A DNA stretch of 64,000 nucleotides from an uncultured Acidimicrobiales bacterium (lineage in GTDB: Bacteria; Actinomycetota; Acidimicrobiia; Acidimicrobiales; Aldehydirespiratoraceae): contig CATQHS010000001.1 of NCBI GenBank assembly GCA_958296055.1, forward strand, positions 3,209,505 to 3,273,504, read 5' to 3'. The position numbers and the translations under genes are program-made. Shown here in pieces: positions 55,159 through 63,995 of this stretch (position 1 is the stretch's first letter; every line of letters starts with the position of its first letter). The notes beneath the pieces were generated by a model. That model searched no databases, was not told the DNA's origin, and saw nothing but the letters and a program-made list of their open reading frames with translations.

Positions 55159-55959
55159 ATGACGGAGTTCCGGGTGGCCCTCACCGTGGCGGCTTCGGAC
55201 CCCCTCGGCGGTGCCGGGGTCCAGGCCGACCTCACCACCTTCGCCGCGCTGGGCGTGCACGGGGCCAGTGCGGTGACGGCGGTGACGGCCCAGTCGCTGA
55301 CCGCGGTGACGGCAGTGGCGCCGGTGGACGCCGACGTGGTGGCAGCCCAGATCGACGAGGTCGCGGCGGTTTTCGAGGTGGCTGCGGTGAAGACCGGACT
55401 GTTGCGCCGGCCCGAGGTGGTGGAGCTGGTGGCGGCCCGGGTGGCCGACGGGGTGCTGCCCGCGCCAGTGGTGGACCCGGTGATGGTGGACGGGCGGGGG
55501 GTCCGCTTCGTGGACGAGGCGGTGGTGGCGGCTTACCGGGAGGCGCTGTTCCCGCTGGCCCGGGTGGTGACGCCCAACCGGGCCGAGGCCGAATTGTTGG
55601 TGGGAGCCGAGCTGGCCGGCTCGGCGGCCGTGGCCGAGCGGGCCGAGGCGTTTCGGGCGCTGGGCGCCGATGTGGTGGTGACCGGCGGCGGCTTCGACGG
55701 CTCGCCCGACGACGTGGTGGTGACCGGATCGGGGGTGCGGGTGTATCCGAGGCGGCGCATCCGCACCGACAACGTGCGGGGGAGCGGCTGCACCTTCTCG
55801 GCCGCGCTGGCCGCGGCCCTGGCCCAGGGCTGCGACTTAGCCGAGGCGGCGTCGGTGGCGGGCGACTTCGTGCGCCGGGCCATCGAGGTGTCCGCGGGCT
55901 GGGACGTGGGCGGCCCCGGCCCGGTCGCCCACGTGACAGTCAGCCCTCAGCGCCTTTAG
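55159..55959 (+). CDS. thiD: Phosphomethylpyrimidine kinase
   Basis: Phosphorylates HMP and HMP-P for thiamin synthesis; ribokinase-like fold, 266 residues. ALTVAASDPLGGAGVQADLTTFAALGVHG is the family N-terminus. AVKTGLL, VVDPVMVDGRG, VTPNRAEAELLVG, DVVVTGGGFDG and RGSGCTFSAALAAALAQG (phosphate-binding end) follow. The stop codon overlaps, on the other strand, the stop of the large NTPase gene by four bases, so the island joins right at the end of thiD. Confidence 0.94.
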   Translation: MTEFRVALTVAASDPLGGAGVQADLTTFAALGVHGASAVTAVTAQSLTAVTAVAPVDADVVAAQIDEVAAVFEVAAVKTGLLRRPEVVELVAARVADGVLPAPVVDPVMVDGRGVRFVDEAVVAAYREALFPLARVVTPNRAEAELLVGAELAGSAAVAERAEAFRALGADVVVTGGGFDGSPDDVVVTGSGVRVYPRRRIRTDNVRGSGCTFSAALAAALAQGCDLAEAASVAGDFVRRAIEVSAGWDVGGPGPVAHVTVSPQRL

Positions 55960-58900
55960 CCCTCAGGCTTTTGGACATCGACTACGCAGACCGTGATCTT
56001 GCGGGACTCTTCTTCGGTCAGCGTCGCTTGCAGCCGTTCTTGTAGCTCTTGGGCAGTACTCGGGCGTTTGCCCTGTGGCGGTGGTGGAGAGTTGTCGCCG
56101 CCGAACCAGAACACCAAGTAAACCCCGTACCCGCCAGTCGCCGGGTCGCTGGTGTACCGCTCGATCAACTGATTGTGCAGCGCACTCCAGAGATCCAGGT
56201 GAGTGGTCTTTTTGACCTCCACCGGCACGTTGAAACCTGGATAGGAAATACGGATGTCGGCCCGCTTGTCGTTGGCGTACTGCCCTTCGGGTTGGGCATC
56301 TACTCCTTCGGGTAGCCGCCCCCGCAGATCCGAGAGCAGCGCATCCCGGCATGAATTCTCGTTCTTGGGTGTCTCAGGCCGGCCGTATGGATCTTCGTTC
56401 CAATACTGCCTCCAGTCATCGGTGTTACCAGTGCGAATCCGAACAGCGATCTCGGACAGACGATCCACTACGAGAGCAGCAAGATCGGCAACATTGGCGG
56501 GTGCTGTGTTACTCAGGGTTTTGAAGATACTCTTTATATCTTGGACATGATAAGTTGCATCTCGATAAATTACTCGTTGATTATCCTGAGCCCTGCGAAG
56601 TGCATCATGCCAGTGATGCAGAGCAGCATCCGATAAAAGACTCTCCAACACCTGTACCGCATCTTGACTCGGCAGGGATGCCAATCTTTGGATTAGGAGG
56701 TGAACTAGATCTGTTGCTTCCATCTCTAGCGTCACTACTCCATTCGCCCAAGTGGGTTTGAATGAAGTTCCTATCGACCTAATGAGGAGACTATATGCTG
56801 TATAATGAAGCTCGTCTGTTAAAATCGGCACCTTCTGCCGAGGACAAAAAAATCTAGCTAAATGTCTAACGCGCTTGTCGTAACCGCCAACGAGTTGCTC
56901 TAACCTATGACAATATGTCTCAGGGGAAATGACGATTCCTGCTGCCAACCAATGAACTTTTTGTGCAGTATTCATACTCTTAGAAGATAATTTTTCTTCA
57001 ATCACTTCTCGAATCGACGACTTATCAGTATGTTGTAAAGCTGACCAAAGAAGATAATCTAGTGCTTCAATTTTACTTAGAGTACAACGTATTGGAAAGG
57101 CTCTTAGTAAAGGCAAACTTGAATAGCGAGCGACTTGAGAGTGATTCGGTATGTGTGCGAGATTGTACAAAGCTGGAATTGATTCTCCTTCATTCCGTAT
57201 ACCTGATTTAGCACACTGTACCAAAACTTCTGCCACTAACTTCGGTGAGGAAGAAACCAATTCTAAGTACCATTCGCTATCCTGAATACGACCGACGGTA
57301 AAGCTATAATATAAGGCCACTGCATTGCGTAACTGATCCTCGCTAAGATTTTGTAATTGCTCAGGCGAACTTCGTCTCATTTGGTCCATACCGGCTAGAA
57401 TTGGATAGGCCAAGTATGGAACTTTAGACTCCGATTTAATTCTTAATATATCCTTAATAGTGGGGATATCCGCTCTCCATATGGTGTAACAAAGACTGTT
57501 TAGAGCGATCTGCAGTAGATCCTCATCTTCTCCCAGGAATTCTCGTAGCTTTTGTTCAGGATCTAGATCAGGACGCCAATTTTGGCCCGCAAACCATCCA
57601 AAATAGGCTCTAGCTATATCGTACAAGAGCGCCGGATTAGCTTGGTTATTCTGTAAGGCTTTAATGTTGGACTTAAGATAGTTTACCCACTGCTTTCGTT
57701 CATGTCTCTGTTCGTGTTCGTATTCTTTAATTTTAAGCTCATGTTCACGCTGCATATCTTCGAGTTCTTGGTCGTTCAGGGTACTTGCTAGTTGGTTTTC
57801 CAGGGCTTGATGCCCATGTGTGCGTTCAAATAGAAGCGATTGTGATAGACCTGTATCATAAGTCTGGCTTTGATATGAGCTAATAGCTTCTCGGAGCAGA
57901 TACTTAGACACTTGAGGATTCATATCGGCTAGTTCAACGGCTTTATCCAAACACCATAGTCCAAAATCGGGTGGGAGCGTACTCCCGTATATACGGTATA
58001 TAGCTGCATGGGCTGAAGAGATTGAATCGTCACCCTTGACGTACCTAATAAGTCCTTCTAGAAAAATTTTCTTCTGAACTTCAGGATGCTTTTCAAGCCA
58101 CCTACTAACTTTAAAGGCGGATTCATCATTGGGATGAAAACCTGTCGGTCTATTCATTGTGCCTGCACTTAGCCAGTTGTAAAGTCTTGCAATATTCAGT
58201 TCAATATCATGTGTATCCAATCCACGAGCTAGAAGAGCGACTGGTAAATCTTTCAGCCCACTACTCTTAAAAGTCTTTTCTAAGACGGACATTTGGATAC
58301 ACAGATTATCAAGCAGTTCAGGAATATCGGCATCGGTCGTCTTTATAAGAAGATGCAATCGCCAAAATATCTGATGTCGCCCGATAAAGGATCTGTGGCT
58401 GTGTCCCGTCAGATAATTCCAAATTCTGGCAGGAGGTATTTGTTCAGGATAAAGAACATCTAGAATTGTTCCTAACAATTCATCATACGAGTCGGAGACG
58501 CGTCCGACTTGAATGTCCTCGAGTAGTTTTAGAAGATTTCTGTCTCTATCATGGCTACATCTTGTGGTGTTGATATATGCATCCAGTGCGCTTAGTGTTA
58601 CTCTTGGCCACCAACTGTCATCGCGCACAATGCCAAGTACGGTCGGGGATAGATCAGGTAATGGCGTGCCTTGATGGAGGATACGCAGCAACAAATCAAT
58701 GAAGATCTGGTGATCCTGATCGCGTCGCGAATCCGTAAACTCCCTGAGCAGCGTTGATTCTAATTTCGTTGAGGCTAGAGATACAAAGGCCGATGCTGTC
58801 TGCCATGTGTCGGCAAATCCGATAACTTCGCGCTTCAAAGATGCGAGCAGTCGGCGCTTCTCCTCAGTAGAGAAATTTCGGATGTCGCCATACAGTCCGA

Positions 58901-60038
58901 CGCCGATGGGATCTCTTGCGATAAGGTCGTCCCTAGCTTGATACGAATGGGCAGCTAGCCAGGCAGACAAGCCTCTGAACCCGGATACGACGCCTCCGTC
59001 CTCGCCGACGAGTAAAGAGATAACTCGGCTTGCCGGAAGACCGTCAGTAATTAGTTGGGCAAGATATCGGGCGGCTAGAAACTCAGCTATGTGCCGGTGA
59101 ACGGGCGCGAAGTGTCCGTCACCACCGACGTCGGCTTTGAACAACATGGAGGCCAGCGCTCGCCTGCGTCTCTCCGGCGATTCGTCGTTCCAAGTGTCTG
59201 GAGCGAGGTATTCGGTGTCGGTTTCGCCAAAGTTGAGCGAGTGTCCGGCCGCGCCTGAAATCAACTGAATGGCACAAAGGCGTCCGGCAGTTTCTAGAAT
59301 TTCGTAGAACGCCTGTGGCGATCTTTGTTCCGAGATCCTATGCTCCTCGTTATGTTCAACAGCCATACGCTGGCAGGCTTTCTCGAAAGTGTCAAGTCGG
59401 CTTTCGGGCCATCCTCCCTCCTGAGCGACTGCTTTTGCCAGTAGAAGGAGGCTCTGCGGATTGAACAGCAGGCCTTCTAGATTTCTTCGGTATGCATTTT
59501 CTTGAAAATCTTTGACATCGTCGATACTCGGATCATTCTCTAAGATGGTGTCAATATTCGGTTTTGTAAGTGGATCAAGCCGTAGCATTACAACTTGAGA
59601 ATTTGCAGATACAGTTATTAAATGTTTCTGATCATTCTCGCCAAGCCAATCAGCTTCACGGCATGATATGCGAAATGAAGGTCTTCCTAAATTGTCAAGT
59701 TTGTTACGGATGAGATCAAAGGGAGTTCGGGAATCTGTATATCCAGTGCGCACCTCGTCTAGTCCGTCTATAAAGATAGTTCGTCCTTGCCATTCTAGAT
59801 GGTTGGCAACGTCAAAGGTGAGGAATTCGCGAGCTGATATCAAAACAGCTTCCTCTCCGATGTCGTTGCATTCGGTTTCGAATTCGGTGCTTTTGCCGGA
59901 TCCGGGATCACCAAGCAGCACGTACGCGGGCTCGGTGCGGAACTCTCTCAGAGGTAATGAAGCAATGTTGCTATTTTTAGTCTCCTCGCCTTGCGAGATC
60001 TCGGTGCAGGTCCGCGGTACGGGGGCTATGCCGCTCAT
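55956..60038 (-). CDS. Large NACHT/STAND-like NTPase with a C-terminal nuclease-like domain
   Basis: A 1360-residue protein. The P-loop LLGDPGSGKSTEF is at residues 41-53 and Walker B IFIDGLDEV at 88-96. HRHIAEFLAARYLAQL near residue 320 matches the winged-helix end of NACHT modules. A long helical, repeat-like middle follows, including a charged coiled coil (DMQREHELKIKEYEHEQRHE). The last about 120 residues read CRDALLSDLRGRLPEG, ADIRISYPGFNVPVEVKKT, a PD-(D/E)xK pattern. Its ATG overlaps the upstream ATPase stop (ATGA, 60035-60038). The middle is clearly AT-richer than the genome. Likely antiphage, unproven. Confidence 0.75.
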   Translation of the reverse strand: MSGIAPVPRTCTEISQGEETKNSNIASLPLREFRTEPAYVLLGDPGSGKSTEFETECNDIGEEAVLISAREFLTFDVANHLEWQGRTIFIDGLDEVRTGYTDSRTPFDLIRNKLDNLGRPSFRISCREADWLGENDQKHLITVSANSQVVMLRLDPLTKPNIDTILENDPSIDDVKDFQENAYRRNLEGLLFNPQSLLLLAKAVAQEGGWPESRLDTFEKACQRMAVEHNEEHRISEQRSPQAFYEILETAGRLCAIQLISGAAGHSLNFGETDTEYLAPDTWNDESPERRRRALASMLFKADVGGDGHFAPVHRHIAEFLAARYLAQLITDGLPASRVISLLVGEDGGVVSGFRGLSAWLAAHSYQARDDLIARDPIGVGLYGDIRNFSTEEKRRLLASLKREVIGFADTWQTASAFVSLASTKLESTLLREFTDSRRDQDHQIFIDLLLRILHQGTPLPDLSPTVLGIVRDDSWWPRVTLSALDAYINTTRCSHDRDRNLLKLLEDIQVGRVSDSYDELLGTILDVLYPEQIPPARIWNYLTGHSHRSFIGRHQIFWRLHLLIKTTDADIPELLDNLCIQMSVLEKTFKSSGLKDLPVALLARGLDTHDIELNIARLYNWLSAGTMNRPTGFHPNDESAFKVSRWLEKHPEVQKKIFLEGLIRYVKGDDSISSAHAAIYRIYGSTLPPDFGLWCLDKAVELADMNPQVSKYLLREAISSYQSQTYDTGLSQSLLFERTHGHQALENQLASTLNDQELEDMQREHELKIKEYEHEQRHERKQWVNYLKSNIKALQNNQANPALLYDIARAYFGWFAGQNWRPDLDPEQKLREFLGEDEDLLQIALNSLCYTIWRADIPTIKDILRIKSESKVPYLAYPILAGMDQMRRSSPEQLQNLSEDQLRNAVALYYSFTVGRIQDSEWYLELVSSSPKLVAEVLVQCAKSGIRNEGESIPALYNLAHIPNHSQVARYSSLPLLRAFPIRCTLSKIEALDYLLWSALQHTDKSSIREVIEEKLSSKSMNTAQKVHWLAAGIVISPETYCHRLEQLVGGYDKRVRHLARFFCPRQKVPILTDELHYTAYSLLIRSIGTSFKPTWANGVVTLEMEATDLVHLLIQRLASLPSQDAVQVLESLLSDAALHHWHDALRRAQDNQRVIYRDATYHVQDIKSIFKTLSNTAPANVADLAALVVDRLSEIAVRIRTGNTDDWRQYWNEDPYGRPETPKNENSCRDALLSDLRGRLPEGVDAQPEGQYANDKRADIRISYPGFNVPVEVKKTTHLDLWSALHNQLIERYTSDPATGGYGVYLVFWFGGDNSPPPPQGKRPSTAQELQERLQATLTEEESRKITVCVVDVQKPEG

Positions 60039-61294
60039 GATTCCGTGAACCAATGTCTTGCGGGCACGCTGAAGAACTCATTGAGCGGTACTCCGCCTTG
60101 TCCGACGAGCAGCGTACGAGCGGGCCCCAGTCGCTTCTGGAACACGGCTAGGCCGCTGACACTGGGGCGCTTCGACCCGCTTTTGACTTCGATGGCCACA
60201 AGTTTGGGGCCGCGTTGCATCACGAAGTCCACTTCGTGCGAGTTCTCTCTCCAGTAGCGAAGACTGATGTCTGACGTAGCGGAGTTGAACAGGTGAGCGC
60301 CAACTGAACTCTCCACGACTCGTCCCCAGAATGTGCGATCTGCCTTCGCTGCATTGAAGGAGTATCCCGATACAGCAGTCATGAGAGCAGTGTTGAGGAC
60401 GTTGAGCTTCGGACTCGACTCTTTGCGGCGGATCGGCTGGTTGGCATGTTTGGGCAGTCCTGCTAGCAGTCCCGCCTTCGAGAGCAGATTGAGGTAGCGA
60501 GCCAGTGTGGTTGTGTTGCCCGCGTCTTGGAGGTGTCCGATCATCTTATTGTACGAAAGGATTTGTCCTGAGTAAGCCGCCCCCAGTTCGAATAGCCGTT
60601 TCAGGAGCACGGGCTTTACGATTCGTGTCATCGAGATGATGTCTCGCTCGATGTTGGGCTCCACCAGCGCCCGAAGGACGTAGTCGCGCCAGCGGTCGGA
60701 GTCCCGAACGTGTTCGGCCGCGCCTGGATACCCGCCGAAGTAGAGGTACTCCTCTAGGTCGAGGTTGAACGCCGAAGACATCTCCAAGAACGACCAGTGG
60801 GTTACGGGAACGGTTTCAAATCGCCCGGCGAGGCTCTCGCTCAGCCCTGATTGCATGAGCAAGGGTGACGACCCCAGTATCACCACGTGCATCGGGAGTT
60901 CTCTGGCCCGGTCGGCATCCCAGAGTCCCTTGACCGCTCTCGACCAATCGGGAATTGTCTGAATCTCGTCGATCACCAACACGAAACCTCGGTCAGGCCG
61001 ATCGGCGGTCCGACGGCGCGCCTCTTCCCAGCGCCTCACCAGCCACTCGATGTCGCGTACTTGGGGCAGTAGAGAGGTCTCTGTTTCGTTCGACTCGGAG
61101 GGAGGCAGCAGTCTGGGGGAGTCGGGTTCGTCGACCGAGAGGTAGAGACTGGCCTGTTCGATCCGTTCGAGTGCCTGGCGTACGATGGTGGTCTTGCCGG
61201 TCTGGCGGGGCCCGAACACCGCGATGATCCTGCTTGGCGACTCGGCCAAGCGATGGACAAGAGTGGTCACGTGCGAGCGCTGGAATGGGCTCAT
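60035..61294 (-). CDS. AAA ATPase with DUF4143 C-terminal domain
   Basis: A 419-residue protein. Walker A FGPRQTGKTTIV is at residues 27-38 and Walker B VLVIDEIQTIPDW at 105-117. ILGSSPLLMQSGLSESLAGRFE is the usual AAA/DUF4143 sensor region, then YLYFGGYPGAAE. A DUF4143 C-terminus follows with YWRENSHEVDFVM (354-359) and LVAIEVKSG (367-373), a PD-(D/E)xK-like core. Such ATPases are common, with unknown function. It is cotranslated with the large NTPase. A promoter embedded in an inverted repeat lies just upstream. Confidence 0.86.
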   Translation of the reverse strand: MSPFQRSHVTTLVHRLAESPSRIIAVFGPRQTGKTTIVRQALERIEQASLYLSVDEPDSPRLLPPSESNETETSLLPQVRDIEWLVRRWEEARRRTADRPDRGFVLVIDEIQTIPDWSRAVKGLWDADRARELPMHVVILGSSPLLMQSGLSESLAGRFETVPVTHWSFLEMSSAFNLDLEEYLYFGGYPGAAEHVRDSDRWRDYVLRALVEPNIERDIISMTRIVKPVLLKRLFELGAAYSGQILSYNKMIGHLQDAGNTTTLARYLNLLSKAGLLAGLPKHANQPIRRKESSPKLNVLNTALMTAVSGYSFNAAKADRTFWGRVVESSVGAHLFNSATSDISLRYWRENSHEVDFVMQRGPKLVAIEVKSGSKRPSVSGLAVFQKRLGPARTLLVGQGGVPLNEFFSVPARHWFTES

Positions 61295-61300
61295 GGAGCT

Positions 61301-61329
61301 ATTTTACATCATTGAGTAAAAATACTCAA
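61301..61329 (-). promoter_or_regulatory. Promoter of the ATPase/NTPase operon
   Basis: On the minus strand TTGAGT (61324-61329), a 17-base spacer and TAAAAT (61301-61306) form a strong promoter six bases before the ATG at 61294, so the mRNA is probably leaderless. Both boxes lie largely inside the inverted repeat 61304-61337. Confidence 0.7.
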
Positions 61330-61337
61330 TGATGTAA
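61304..61337. promoter_or_regulatory. Perfect 15-bp inverted repeat, likely operator
   Basis: TTACATCATTGAGTA (61304-61318) and its exact complement (61323-61337) are separated by AAAA. It covers the -35 box and touches the -10 box of the ATPase operon, as an autoregulatory operator would. It has no GC-rich stem plus T-run, so a terminator is less likely. The binding protein is unknown. Confidence 0.6.
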
Positions 61338-61839: not shown

Positions 61840-62568
61840 TTAGCTCCCAAGTGCTTCTAGGAGGACAGACAGGGCAATCAGTGATCCAACGAGACCCACC
61901 AACCCCATGACCAACAGGACGGCTCTGCGAGCGCACCCAGTCCTGTTTCCGAGCGAGGCTTGGCGCTCGCTGTGTCGCCCATGTCGGGTCAGGTCGCCCG
62001 GCGCTGTCAGCGCCGTTTCTTCTTGATAGAAGATCGCCTCTTTGTGTTGCCCATGTTGGACTAGGTCGTCTGATGCTGCCAGGTACCGCTCAATACGTAC
62101 GTTGATATCCCATGATTTTGAGATCAAGTTGTGCATCTCTGTCCAGAGCCGGGTGGCCTCGTCGCCGGTGACGAGCGCCATCATCTCGACGTTGTGGAAC
62201 AGCCCCTGCTTGGTCAGGTTTGCAGATCCCAACATAACTGATAGACCGGCTGGGTTGGAACGGTCATTCCATACCATCCATGCCTTGGCATGAGCCTCAG
62301 ACGGATCTCCCCCCTTGCTCGTGCGGTACCAGTTTCGAACCTGTACATCTGGTCGAGCCAAGAATTCTAGAGCTGATGAGCGGGCGGCCGTAGTGGCCTT
62401 GGTGAAGTAAGTTTTCTTGGCATTGCCGATGACCAAAGTCACGGGCTGGCCTCGGGTGTGCTCATTCAACCAGGCCAGACCAGCGGTGCTCGCATAGCCA
62501 ACCGTAATGTAGAGGTGGCCGTGAGGATTGGCTCGCAAGAACCTTACTATCTGATTAGAGGCTGACAT
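61840..62568 (-). CDS. Phospholipase D-family nuclease-like protein with C-terminal membrane helix
   Basis: A 242-residue protein. LYITVGYASTAGLAWLNEH opens a PLD fold. EAHAKAWMVW (His-x-Lys) followed by VMLGSANLTKQGLFHNVEMMAL is the single catalytic motif, as in NgoFVII/BfiI-like nucleases that work as dimers. Near the C-terminus is a basic stretch with two similar segments (LVQHGQHKE, LTRHGRHSE), then a hydrophobic helix (AVLLVMGLVGLVGSLIALSVLLEAL). AAAGGAG eight bases before ATG 62568 sets the start. The next feature is the CRISPR array, 82 bases away. Possible membrane-linked effector. Confidence 0.72.
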   Translation of the reverse strand: MSASNQIVRFLRANPHGHLYITVGYASTAGLAWLNEHTRGQPVTLVIGNAKKTYFTKATTAARSSALEFLARPDVQVRNWYRTSKGGDPSEAHAKAWMVWNDRSNPAGLSVMLGSANLTKQGLFHNVEMMALVTGDEATRLWTEMHNLISKSWDINVRIERYLAASDDLVQHGQHKEAIFYQEETALTAPGDLTRHGRHSERQASLGNRTGCARRAVLLVMGLVGLVGSLIALSVLLEALGS

Positions 62569-62650
62569 TTGCCTCACTCCTTTCATGTTGGATACTTTGT
62601 GAGGACATCTTTAGATCTACGCAAAGAGCTATATCGCGGGTTTTTAAGTG

Positions 62651-63995
62651 CCTTCAATGTAGGGGGAGGGGGGACCCTCCCCGTATTCGAACGCCTCGGC
62701 GTCGATCCCCACACCCGGTCGGTGCTTCAATGTAGGGGGAGGGGGGACCCTCCCCGTATGATCGAGGCCGAGATCGTCGGGCCGGCCGAGATCCGGCTTC
62801 AATGTAGGGGGAGGGGGGACCCTCCCCGTATCGGCGTGACCGTGACCACATGACCCCCCCGAAAAACAGCTTCAATGTAGGGGGAGGGGGGACCCTCCCC
62901 GTATGCGATCATCGCCTGGTGGACCGACTGATGGCCTCCCTCGCTTCAATGTAGGGGGAGGGGGGACCCTCCCCGTATGCCAGTTCCGAATGGCCGCGTC
63001 GGCGGCGAGAGTGTTCGCTTCAATGTAGGGGGAGGGGGGACCCTCCCCGTATCCCTGACCAGCACTTATACAATTCTCGAAAATAATCTGCTTCAATGTA
63101 GGGGGAGGGGGGACCCTCCCCGTATATAAATGAGCTGCTTTCAACGCTGACTCAAACTTATGCTTCAATGTAGGGGGAGGGGGGACCCTCCCCGTATCCC
63201 AGATGACATACCACTAGCGGACGAGTATAGATGCTTCAATGTAGGGGGAGGGGGGACCCTCCCCGTATATGTTCGTCGGTAGACAGACAGCACGCGGCAA
63301 GCGTGCTTCAATGTAGGGGGAGGGGGGACCCTCCCCGTATCGGCGTCCCAGGCGCGGGCAGGGCTTGAACCTTGAGCTTCAATGTAGGGGGAGGGGGGAC
63401 CCTCCCCGTATAAGAGAGGAAGAGATAACCATGACTGACAAGCCTAAGCTTCAATGTAGGGGGAGGGGGGACCCTCCCCGTATGGTATAGAACCTCTCAC
63501 CAGCACCAGCATTGGGAGGGCTTCAATGTAGGGGGAGGGGGGACCCTCCCCGTATTTGACCATTCATCTGACTTAGACTTATCAATACCGCTGCTTCAAT
63601 GTAGGGGGAGGGGGGACCCTCCCCGTATGGGTGTAAGGCGTACAATATAATGGCTGAGTCACTAATGCTTCAATGTAGGGGGAGGGGGGACCCTCCCCGT
63701 ATATGGCGCTACCGAGACGCTACAGAGGGCGACCGCGAGCTTCAATGTAGGGGGAGGGGGGACCCTCCCCGTATGTGATGCGATTTCGCTGCGCTGCTCG
63801 TCGTGTACCACGCTTCAATGTAGGGGGAGGGGGGACCCTCCCCGTATCGAAGCTCGACGACTCCGGCCATCGGGCCACTTGGGAGCTTCAATGTAGGGGG
63901 AGGGGGGACCCTCCCCGTATGCCCAACCACACCAAACGCACACCGTGTCAGACGCCTTGCTTCAATGTAGGGGGAGGGGGGGACCCTCCCCGTAT
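62651..63995. CRISPR. CRISPR array, 19 repeats and 18 spacers
   Basis: The repeat is 36 bp, starting GCTTCAATGTAG and ending CCCTCCCCGTAT, with an internal perfect stem (GGGGAGGG / CCCTCCCC). Repeat starts: 62651, 62724, 62796, 62869, 62943, 63017, 63090, 63162, 63233, 63305, 63376, 63448, 63520, 63593, 63667, 63739, 63812, 63885, 63959. Spacers are 35-38 bp, all different. Repeat 1 has C instead of G at its first base; repeat 19 has one extra G. Read on the minus strand the repeat ends ATTGAAGC, like known type I/III 5' handles, so the leader is probably right of the window. No cas gene is in the window. Confidence 0.97.

Follow-up and report, generated by a model that had tools for sequence, protein, structure and literature searches.

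Organization of the locus

The DNA analysed here, a 64,000-nucleotide (nt) stretch of contig CATQHS010000001.1 from an uncultured Acidimicrobiales bacterium (hereafter the window), carries two overlapping genes on the minus strand, which we call B and A. B encodes an ATPase of the candidate defence family PDC-S01, A encodes a large NACHT protein akin to the antiphage protein EruA, and a palindrome lies ahead of B. The pair is real and widespread and is not described as such in the literature searched; NACHT antiphage proteins and PDC-S01 are kinds already known. The palindrome is new here. Together the two genes span positions 55956–61294 of the window, where the original prediction, made from the sequence alone, had placed them:

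60035..61294, minus strand: gene B, 419 amino acids (aa), AAA_14/DUF4143 ATPase, PDC-S01 candidate defence family
55956..60038, minus strand: gene A, 1360 aa, EruA-like NACHT protein, start codon ATG at 60038
60035..60038, minus strand: ATGA overlap of the B stop codon (TGA) with the A start codon (ATG)

A and a convergent thiD-like gene (Phos_pyr_kin, 5.7e-67) overlap at the stop codon of A, where the thiD-like gene also ends, and a single promoter-like element lies ahead of B. GC content falls from 0.70 in the window to 0.59 in B and 0.48 in A; third codon positions of A have a GC content of 0.45, and the lowest values (0.42–0.43) are found at A residues 431–1100. The prediction of an AT-richer two-gene island with a shared ATGA, one promoter for both genes, an AT-rich middle of the large gene and an end at thiD is confirmed. 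In other genomes, A mostly differs in GC content by no more than a few points from the DNA around it, and the dip therefore suggests that A arrived recently in the present genome.

Gene A is an EruA-like NACHT protein

A search of the Pfam library left A below every cut-off, and 5027 PADLOC models gave zero matches at E values up to 1; the PADLOC library includes Avs models. The NCBIfam model NF058535 (NACHT domain-containing antiphage protein EruA) matched A with 910.8 bits (2.1e-273), A residues 28–1356 aligning to model positions 15–1318, which is nearly the whole length. The score for another NACHT antiphage protein, HyoA (NF058534), was 220.1 bits, far under its cut-off of 1200. The following features could be assigned in A:

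59886..59912, minus strand: Walker A, GDPGSGKST
59748..59783, minus strand: Walker B of the NACHT type, IFIDGLDEVR
57699..58748, minus strand: variable middle, residues 431–780
56586..57707, minus strand: module of residues 778–1151, which occurs fused to B in two genomes
55959..56441, minus strand: C-terminal nuclease-like domain, residues ~1200–1360, with E1227, D1261, E1274-x-K1276 and Q1290

A shares its P-loop and NACHT-type Walker B (GxDE; here DGLDE) with signal transduction ATPases with numerous domains (STAND) and NACHT NTPases, and both motifs are kept in 97–100% of 35 aligned proteins (L014 was excluded from this alignment; L numbers denote loci). Each of E1227, D1261, E1274, K1276 and Q1290 is retained at the same level, and A has the complete PD-(D/E)xK motif set (E, D, ExK, Q). 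The NACHT part and the C-terminal PD-(D/E)xK residues are common to A and EruA. A model of the A C-terminus fits the PD-(D/E)xK fold, with Can2/Card1 and other nucleases of this fold as its best matches and McrC also among the matches. The variable middle belongs to the parts of the protein with the lowest conservation and the most gaps, is largely gone in some natural relatives, and is likely the sensor region.

In a precomputed annotation, Pfam PF28130 is placed on protein P0001 and on many A relatives; it is absent from our Pfam result for A. Two stand-alone open reading frames (ORFs), L103:6031–6900 and one in L063, match only the C-terminal part of A (residues 1080–1359 and 1087–1355, respectively) and may be separate nuclease genes or remnants. 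We considered the motif VPRTCTEI at the A N-terminus as a tag for docking of B. Most paired A proteins have it, but EruA-like proteins without B are similar there, and the idea was dropped.

Gene B is a DUF4143 ATPase with a STAND-like model

A Pfam profile search assigned AAA_14 and DUF4143 to B, and the PADLOC model PDLC04791 (PDC-S01) matched residues 4–416 of 419 with 536.4 bits, a full-length match. Along with the EruA alignment and the NACHT motifs of A, these matches bear out the earlier naming of the products as a DUF4143 ATPase and a 1360-residue NACHT-like NTPase. Searching solved structures by sequence yielded nothing useful for A or B. The features of B are:

61187..61213, minus strand: Walker A, GPRQTGKTT
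60959..60982, minus strand: Walker B, VLVIDEIQ
60395..60613, minus strand: middle, residues ~228–300, predicted winged helix (helices then strands), from the secondary structure of the model and the span of the STAND matches
60038..60337, minus strand: C-terminus with a PD-(D/E)xK-like order of elements, D356 and E369-x-K371, from the motif and the secondary structure of the model

D356, E369 and K371 are each kept in at least 96% of 29 proteins. The structure model used for B has a predicted local distance difference test (pLDDT) value of 77.6. Its top VIA fold matches are the STAND proteins 2qen (15.6) and 2fna (15.0) and CED-4 (14.6), followed by AAA+ entries at ~12–14; plant nucleotide-binding leucine-rich repeat receptors (NLRs) are also among the best. 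These matches cover residues 1–326 (mainly 2–321) at 14–16% identity. A STAND-type arrangement of ATPase, helical domain and winged helix fits the model, in which B would resemble the archaeal STAND ATPases, CED-4 and plant NLRs but carry an extra C-terminal ExK domain.

Both proteins combine ATPase and ExK motifs, as one would expect if B and A formed a single two-ATPase restriction complex that, like McrBC, recognises and cuts foreign DNA directly; the presence of McrC among the fold matches of the A C-terminus points the same way. However, A is of the NACHT/EruA type with a sensor-like variable middle and the pair includes no modification enzyme, and we regard such a machine as very unlikely.

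B and A are a conserved pair

Among 15 A relatives from named genomes, 12 had B or part of B upstream, two were at a contig edge, and one (L007), where an insertion containing a transposase-like ORF interrupts A, had none. Records with A relatives came from Chloroflexi, Acidobacteriota, Binatota, Nitrospinota, Gemmatimonadota and Gammaproteobacteria and, as a decayed copy, from Spirochaetia. The 39 proteins of a tree built by a quick method, with midpoint rooting and some long branches, did not include L007 with its broken A, nor L008 and L013 at contig edges. The tree contained one clade of 30 proteins (Shimodaira–Hasegawa-like approximate likelihood ratio test 96), 29 of which had B upstream, the exception being L059. 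Five rows of the tree bear the B label on partial evidence or through a different locus that covers the same place: B is cut by the contig end in L003 and L054, L014 has only B residues 264–419 and an A that stopped early, and the labels of L083 and L084 were taken from L088 and L087, respectively.

The same picture emerged from two wider samples. In 395 Pseudomonadota genomes, 47 matches to the EruA model passed 1e-60; 30 were fetched, and B was present in all 29 that were testable (L165 coincides with L055 and L167 with L057, both in the first set, and L164 with L054). In 64 Gemmatimonadota genomes, A was found in 10, and B-type genes of at least 65% identity occurred in those same 10, a dividing line noticed after the fact; six more B-type places (50–56% identity) had no adjoining A as far as this could be judged. 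The pairing, seen in several bacterial phyla, exceeds chance. With adjacency conserved in this way, the objection foreseen in the original prediction, that homologues of the two genes might rarely be neighbours, fails. The junctions are mostly overlaps (ATGA, GTGA or TGATG), with the genes a few nt apart in L001 and L075. In L062 and L088, gaps of ~430 and ~180 base pairs (bp) contain a shared intervening sequence, and A is there without its middle part.

The relation to EruA could be narrowed further. The curated NCBI cut-off for EruA is 1000 bits; A lies below it, and none of the B-paired proteins scored reached it (best 968.5). Six EruA proteins over the cut-off (L047, L048, L052, L186, L188 and L189; 1035–1326 bits) had neither a B-type gene in the flanks read nor a B-type palindrome. 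Because the paired proteins are all below and the six without B above, the cut-off separates EruA from a B-paired sister clade in the sample seen, and the named family does not come with the same ATPase partner. On the Paracoccus plasmid locus L048 a DUF4143 gene of another PDC-S01 subfamily lies downstream, which may be chance. In PMC12988326, PDC-S01 is listed as a single-gene, unvalidated candidate; B matches the family model, but its branch has a fixed partner gene in A. Literature searches on EruA, HyoA, B as their partner and DUF4143 found no paper on the pair. The earlier impression that the pairing was not a described system therefore stands as regards the conserved pair itself; it does not stand for the components, as A is a sister of EruA and B falls into PDC-S01.

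In two genomes (L064:3152–5770 and L065:1199–3847), B is fused in frame to A residues 778–1151, giving proteins of 872 and 882 aa that lack both the NACHT part and the nuclease part. Since the B half retains its catalytic residues and the ratio of nonsynonymous to synonymous substitution rates (dN/dS) between the two fusions is ~0.21 in both halves, these two related sequences appear to be maintained by selection rather than decaying. The natural fusion suggests that B may contact A through this module.

It could be argued that A alone is the defence protein, as a solitary EruA would be, and that B is merely a regulator or a frequent rider. The six EruA proteins over the cut-off and L059, which lies within the clade, are without B, and the palindrome described below accompanies B even without A, which marks B as a unit of its own. 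Against this, B is kept in 29 of the 30 rows of one clade, retains its ATPase and ExK residues, and is fused to part of A in two genomes. We consider a defence role of A alone rather unlikely.

A palindrome covers the predicted promoter of B

The upstream region of B contains two overlapping elements:

61304..61337, no strand assigned: perfect 15-bp inverted repeat with a 4-nt centre, TTACATCATTGAGTA-TTTT-TACTCAATGATGTAA, ending 9 nt before the B ATG; predicted operator
61301..61329, minus strand: predicted promoter inside the palindrome, TTGAGT, 17 nt, TAAAAT, 6 nt, ATG

The palindrome core, TTGAGTA-N4-TACTCAA, overlies the predicted −35/−10 elements of B. Of 38 distinct regions upstream of B-type genes, 30 match it at 12 or more of its 14 positions, where dinucleotide shuffles would lead one to expect 0.15, and the 4-nt gap was constant in all 30. 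Regions below 60 nt, B matches starting past residue 12 and duplicates had been dropped from this set. The core was present in 22 of 28 paired regions (counting L109, the start of the L062 pair) and before 8 of 10 B-type genes without A seen, including those of Thermus and Bacteroides; one of these ten regions, L106, runs off its contig, and an A there cannot be excluded. A Collinsella B-type upstream region scores 11. In a second set, 19 of 28 upstream regions had the core, two of them being repeats from the first set. None of 10 A genes without B was preceded by it, although L047 and L186 are weak controls because their annotated starts are probably too far 3'. The palindrome is thus tied to B and not to A.

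The exact pattern TTGAGTAN{0,6}TACTCAA has one site in the present genome, the one before B. Among 20 genomes it occurred six times in six genomes, five times before B-type genes and once (G696) elsewhere, and a reversed control pattern gave one site. Twenty of 27 paired regions contain TTGAGT, TTGACT or TTGAGA, and in 19 of these 20, TANNNT follows after 17 nt, 6–10 nt before the start codon. From this spacing we infer that the palindrome covers a promoter and that the transcript is leaderless. In 47 sequences, pairing of the outer arms exceeded the column expectation at some positions only (0.66 versus 0.31 at position 9, 0.57 versus 0.64 at position 1), and we therefore emphasize the core alone.

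Is the palindrome really an operator of B? It might instead simply belong to the promoter, form a hairpin or be a site at which the module is mobilised, since it includes −35/−10-like hexamers and hairpins ahead of genes are common (22 of 207 control ORFs). However, its core and 4-nt spacing are conserved across phyla and at solitary B genes, and the predicted start of transcription is downstream of it. Transposon ends had been considered and were rejected, as a single site in the present genome provides no pair of ends. Other DUF4143 subfamilies have palindromes of their own. The B-type core was found before none of 25 Spirochaetota DUF4143 genes with a usable ORF (30 loci, L126–L155), but other significant palindromes preceded 11 of the 25, compared with 3 of 30 control ORFs (Fisher p 0.005). 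Taken together, a role other than that of an operator seems unlikely. The Spirochaetota palindromes differ from one another in sequence, and several have TTGAC in the loop or an arm. Most simply, this can be read as each DUF4143 ATPase binding a palindrome of its own, and general autoregulation of the DUF4143 family is possible. According to PMC4406477, a Thermus thermophilus DUF4143 gene with helix-turn-helix motifs is up 6.6-fold when a plasmid and Argonaute are both present.

The gene order, the overlap and the promoter palindrome agree with the usual layout of type II toxin–antitoxin systems. B would then be an autoregulated first gene whose product neutralises a harmful A. However, A-like proteins exist without B (the EruA proteins over the cut-off and L059), B, as a large STAND ATPase, is unlike a small antitoxin, and the same palindrome is found at solitary B genes, all of which makes a toxin–antitoxin-like pair improbable.

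Genomic surroundings and mobility

Upstream of the pair, the window contains a gene for a phospholipase D (PLD)-like protein (61840–62586; PLDc_2, 1.4e-8), which is weakly similar to DISARM DrmC, below the DrmC cut-off. Beyond it, near the contig end, lies an array of clustered regularly interspaced short palindromic repeats (CRISPR; 62647–63990, spacing ~73 nt). Its 36-nt repeat occurs in 17 exact copies (starts 62724–63885), or 19 according to a repeat finder. Both neighbours had been pointed out before and are indeed present; their proximity is weak evidence for defence, since few of the neighbours tested elsewhere are defence genes. The same genome has a second B-like fragment (L072, contig C1, 2570041–2570925; 59% identity), truncated and with an internal TAG, which has no A and, by eye, adjoins a HipA-like ORF.

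When 106 ORFs from the flanks of 20 loci were scanned against PADLOC, 172 families matched at 1e-10, usually with one protein matching many models; the figure counts families, not ORFs, and stands without a control set, and we claim no enrichment. When 10 flanking ORFs were checked singly, three matched PADLOC at 1e-20, two of them belonging to one restriction system.

Carriage as cargo of phages or other mobile elements was considered and rejected: viral contigs gave four pattern-matching stretches, none of them a relative, and 50,697 phage records gave one weak match. Relatives of B were likewise not found in viral contigs. Distant A relatives occurred in 37 plasmid records, all below 60% identity.

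A model for the function of the pair

We propose that B and A form a two-protein anti-phage defence system in which B holds the shared promoter down via the palindrome and partners A, whose nuclease cuts DNA on infection. We think this probable by a small degree. Its observed basis is the pairing with overlapping genes, the conserved ATPase and nuclease motifs, the association of the palindrome with B and the natural fusion of B to A residues 778–1151. The winged helix of B would bind the palindrome and keep the operon low, in an autoregulation coupled to the ATP state of B. As a STAND ATPase, B may change state on infection, and the variable middle of A may sense a phage component. A would then assemble through its NACHT part, driven by ATP and aided by contact of B with the 778–1151 module. 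This would switch on the C-terminal PD-(D/E)xK domain, the DNA would be degraded and the infected cell stopped. The ExK domain of B is a predicted second nuclease.

Several points weigh against this proposal. L059, a clade member, and L007 are without B, so that B is not strictly needed, and EruA proteins over the cut-off do without both B and its palindrome. The core is missing from 8 of the 38 regions of the first set and from 9 of the 28 of the second, and STAND winged helices often act in assembly, not in DNA binding. The B model is of middling quality (pLDDT 54–78 across five models), and the fold matches for the A nuclease are weak by E-value (best 2.3e-3). The original prediction gave each partner an ATPase and an E-x-K nuclease-like fold. 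The motifs are there in both, and the fold is supported for A by the model; the C-terminus of B agrees with PD-(D/E)xK in motif and secondary structure, but the fold matches do not reach it. Few of the neighbours tested in other genomes are defence genes, and our literature search did not turn up the publication from which the name EruA comes.

Significance

Plants have paired NLR receptors. A broader version of our proposal, possible but doubtful, sees in B and A a bacterial counterpart: two STAND receptors, each with a nuclease, encoded in one overlapping operon, where a self-regulating B switch would license A, the NACHT nuclease. The same would then hold more widely, with tens of thousands of PDC-S01/DUF4143 ATPases acting as autoregulated switches, each with its own promoter palindrome. 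According to PMC12988326, PDC-S01 is the fourth most common prokaryotic defence candidate, with 9,986 archaeal and 29,494 bacterial systems, and experimental validation is still outstanding for the majority of these candidates. The constant partner, akin to antiphage proteins, and the palindrome that accompanies the gene offer two direct handles on the function of this family. If the broader version is true, bacteria have paired NLR-like receptors.
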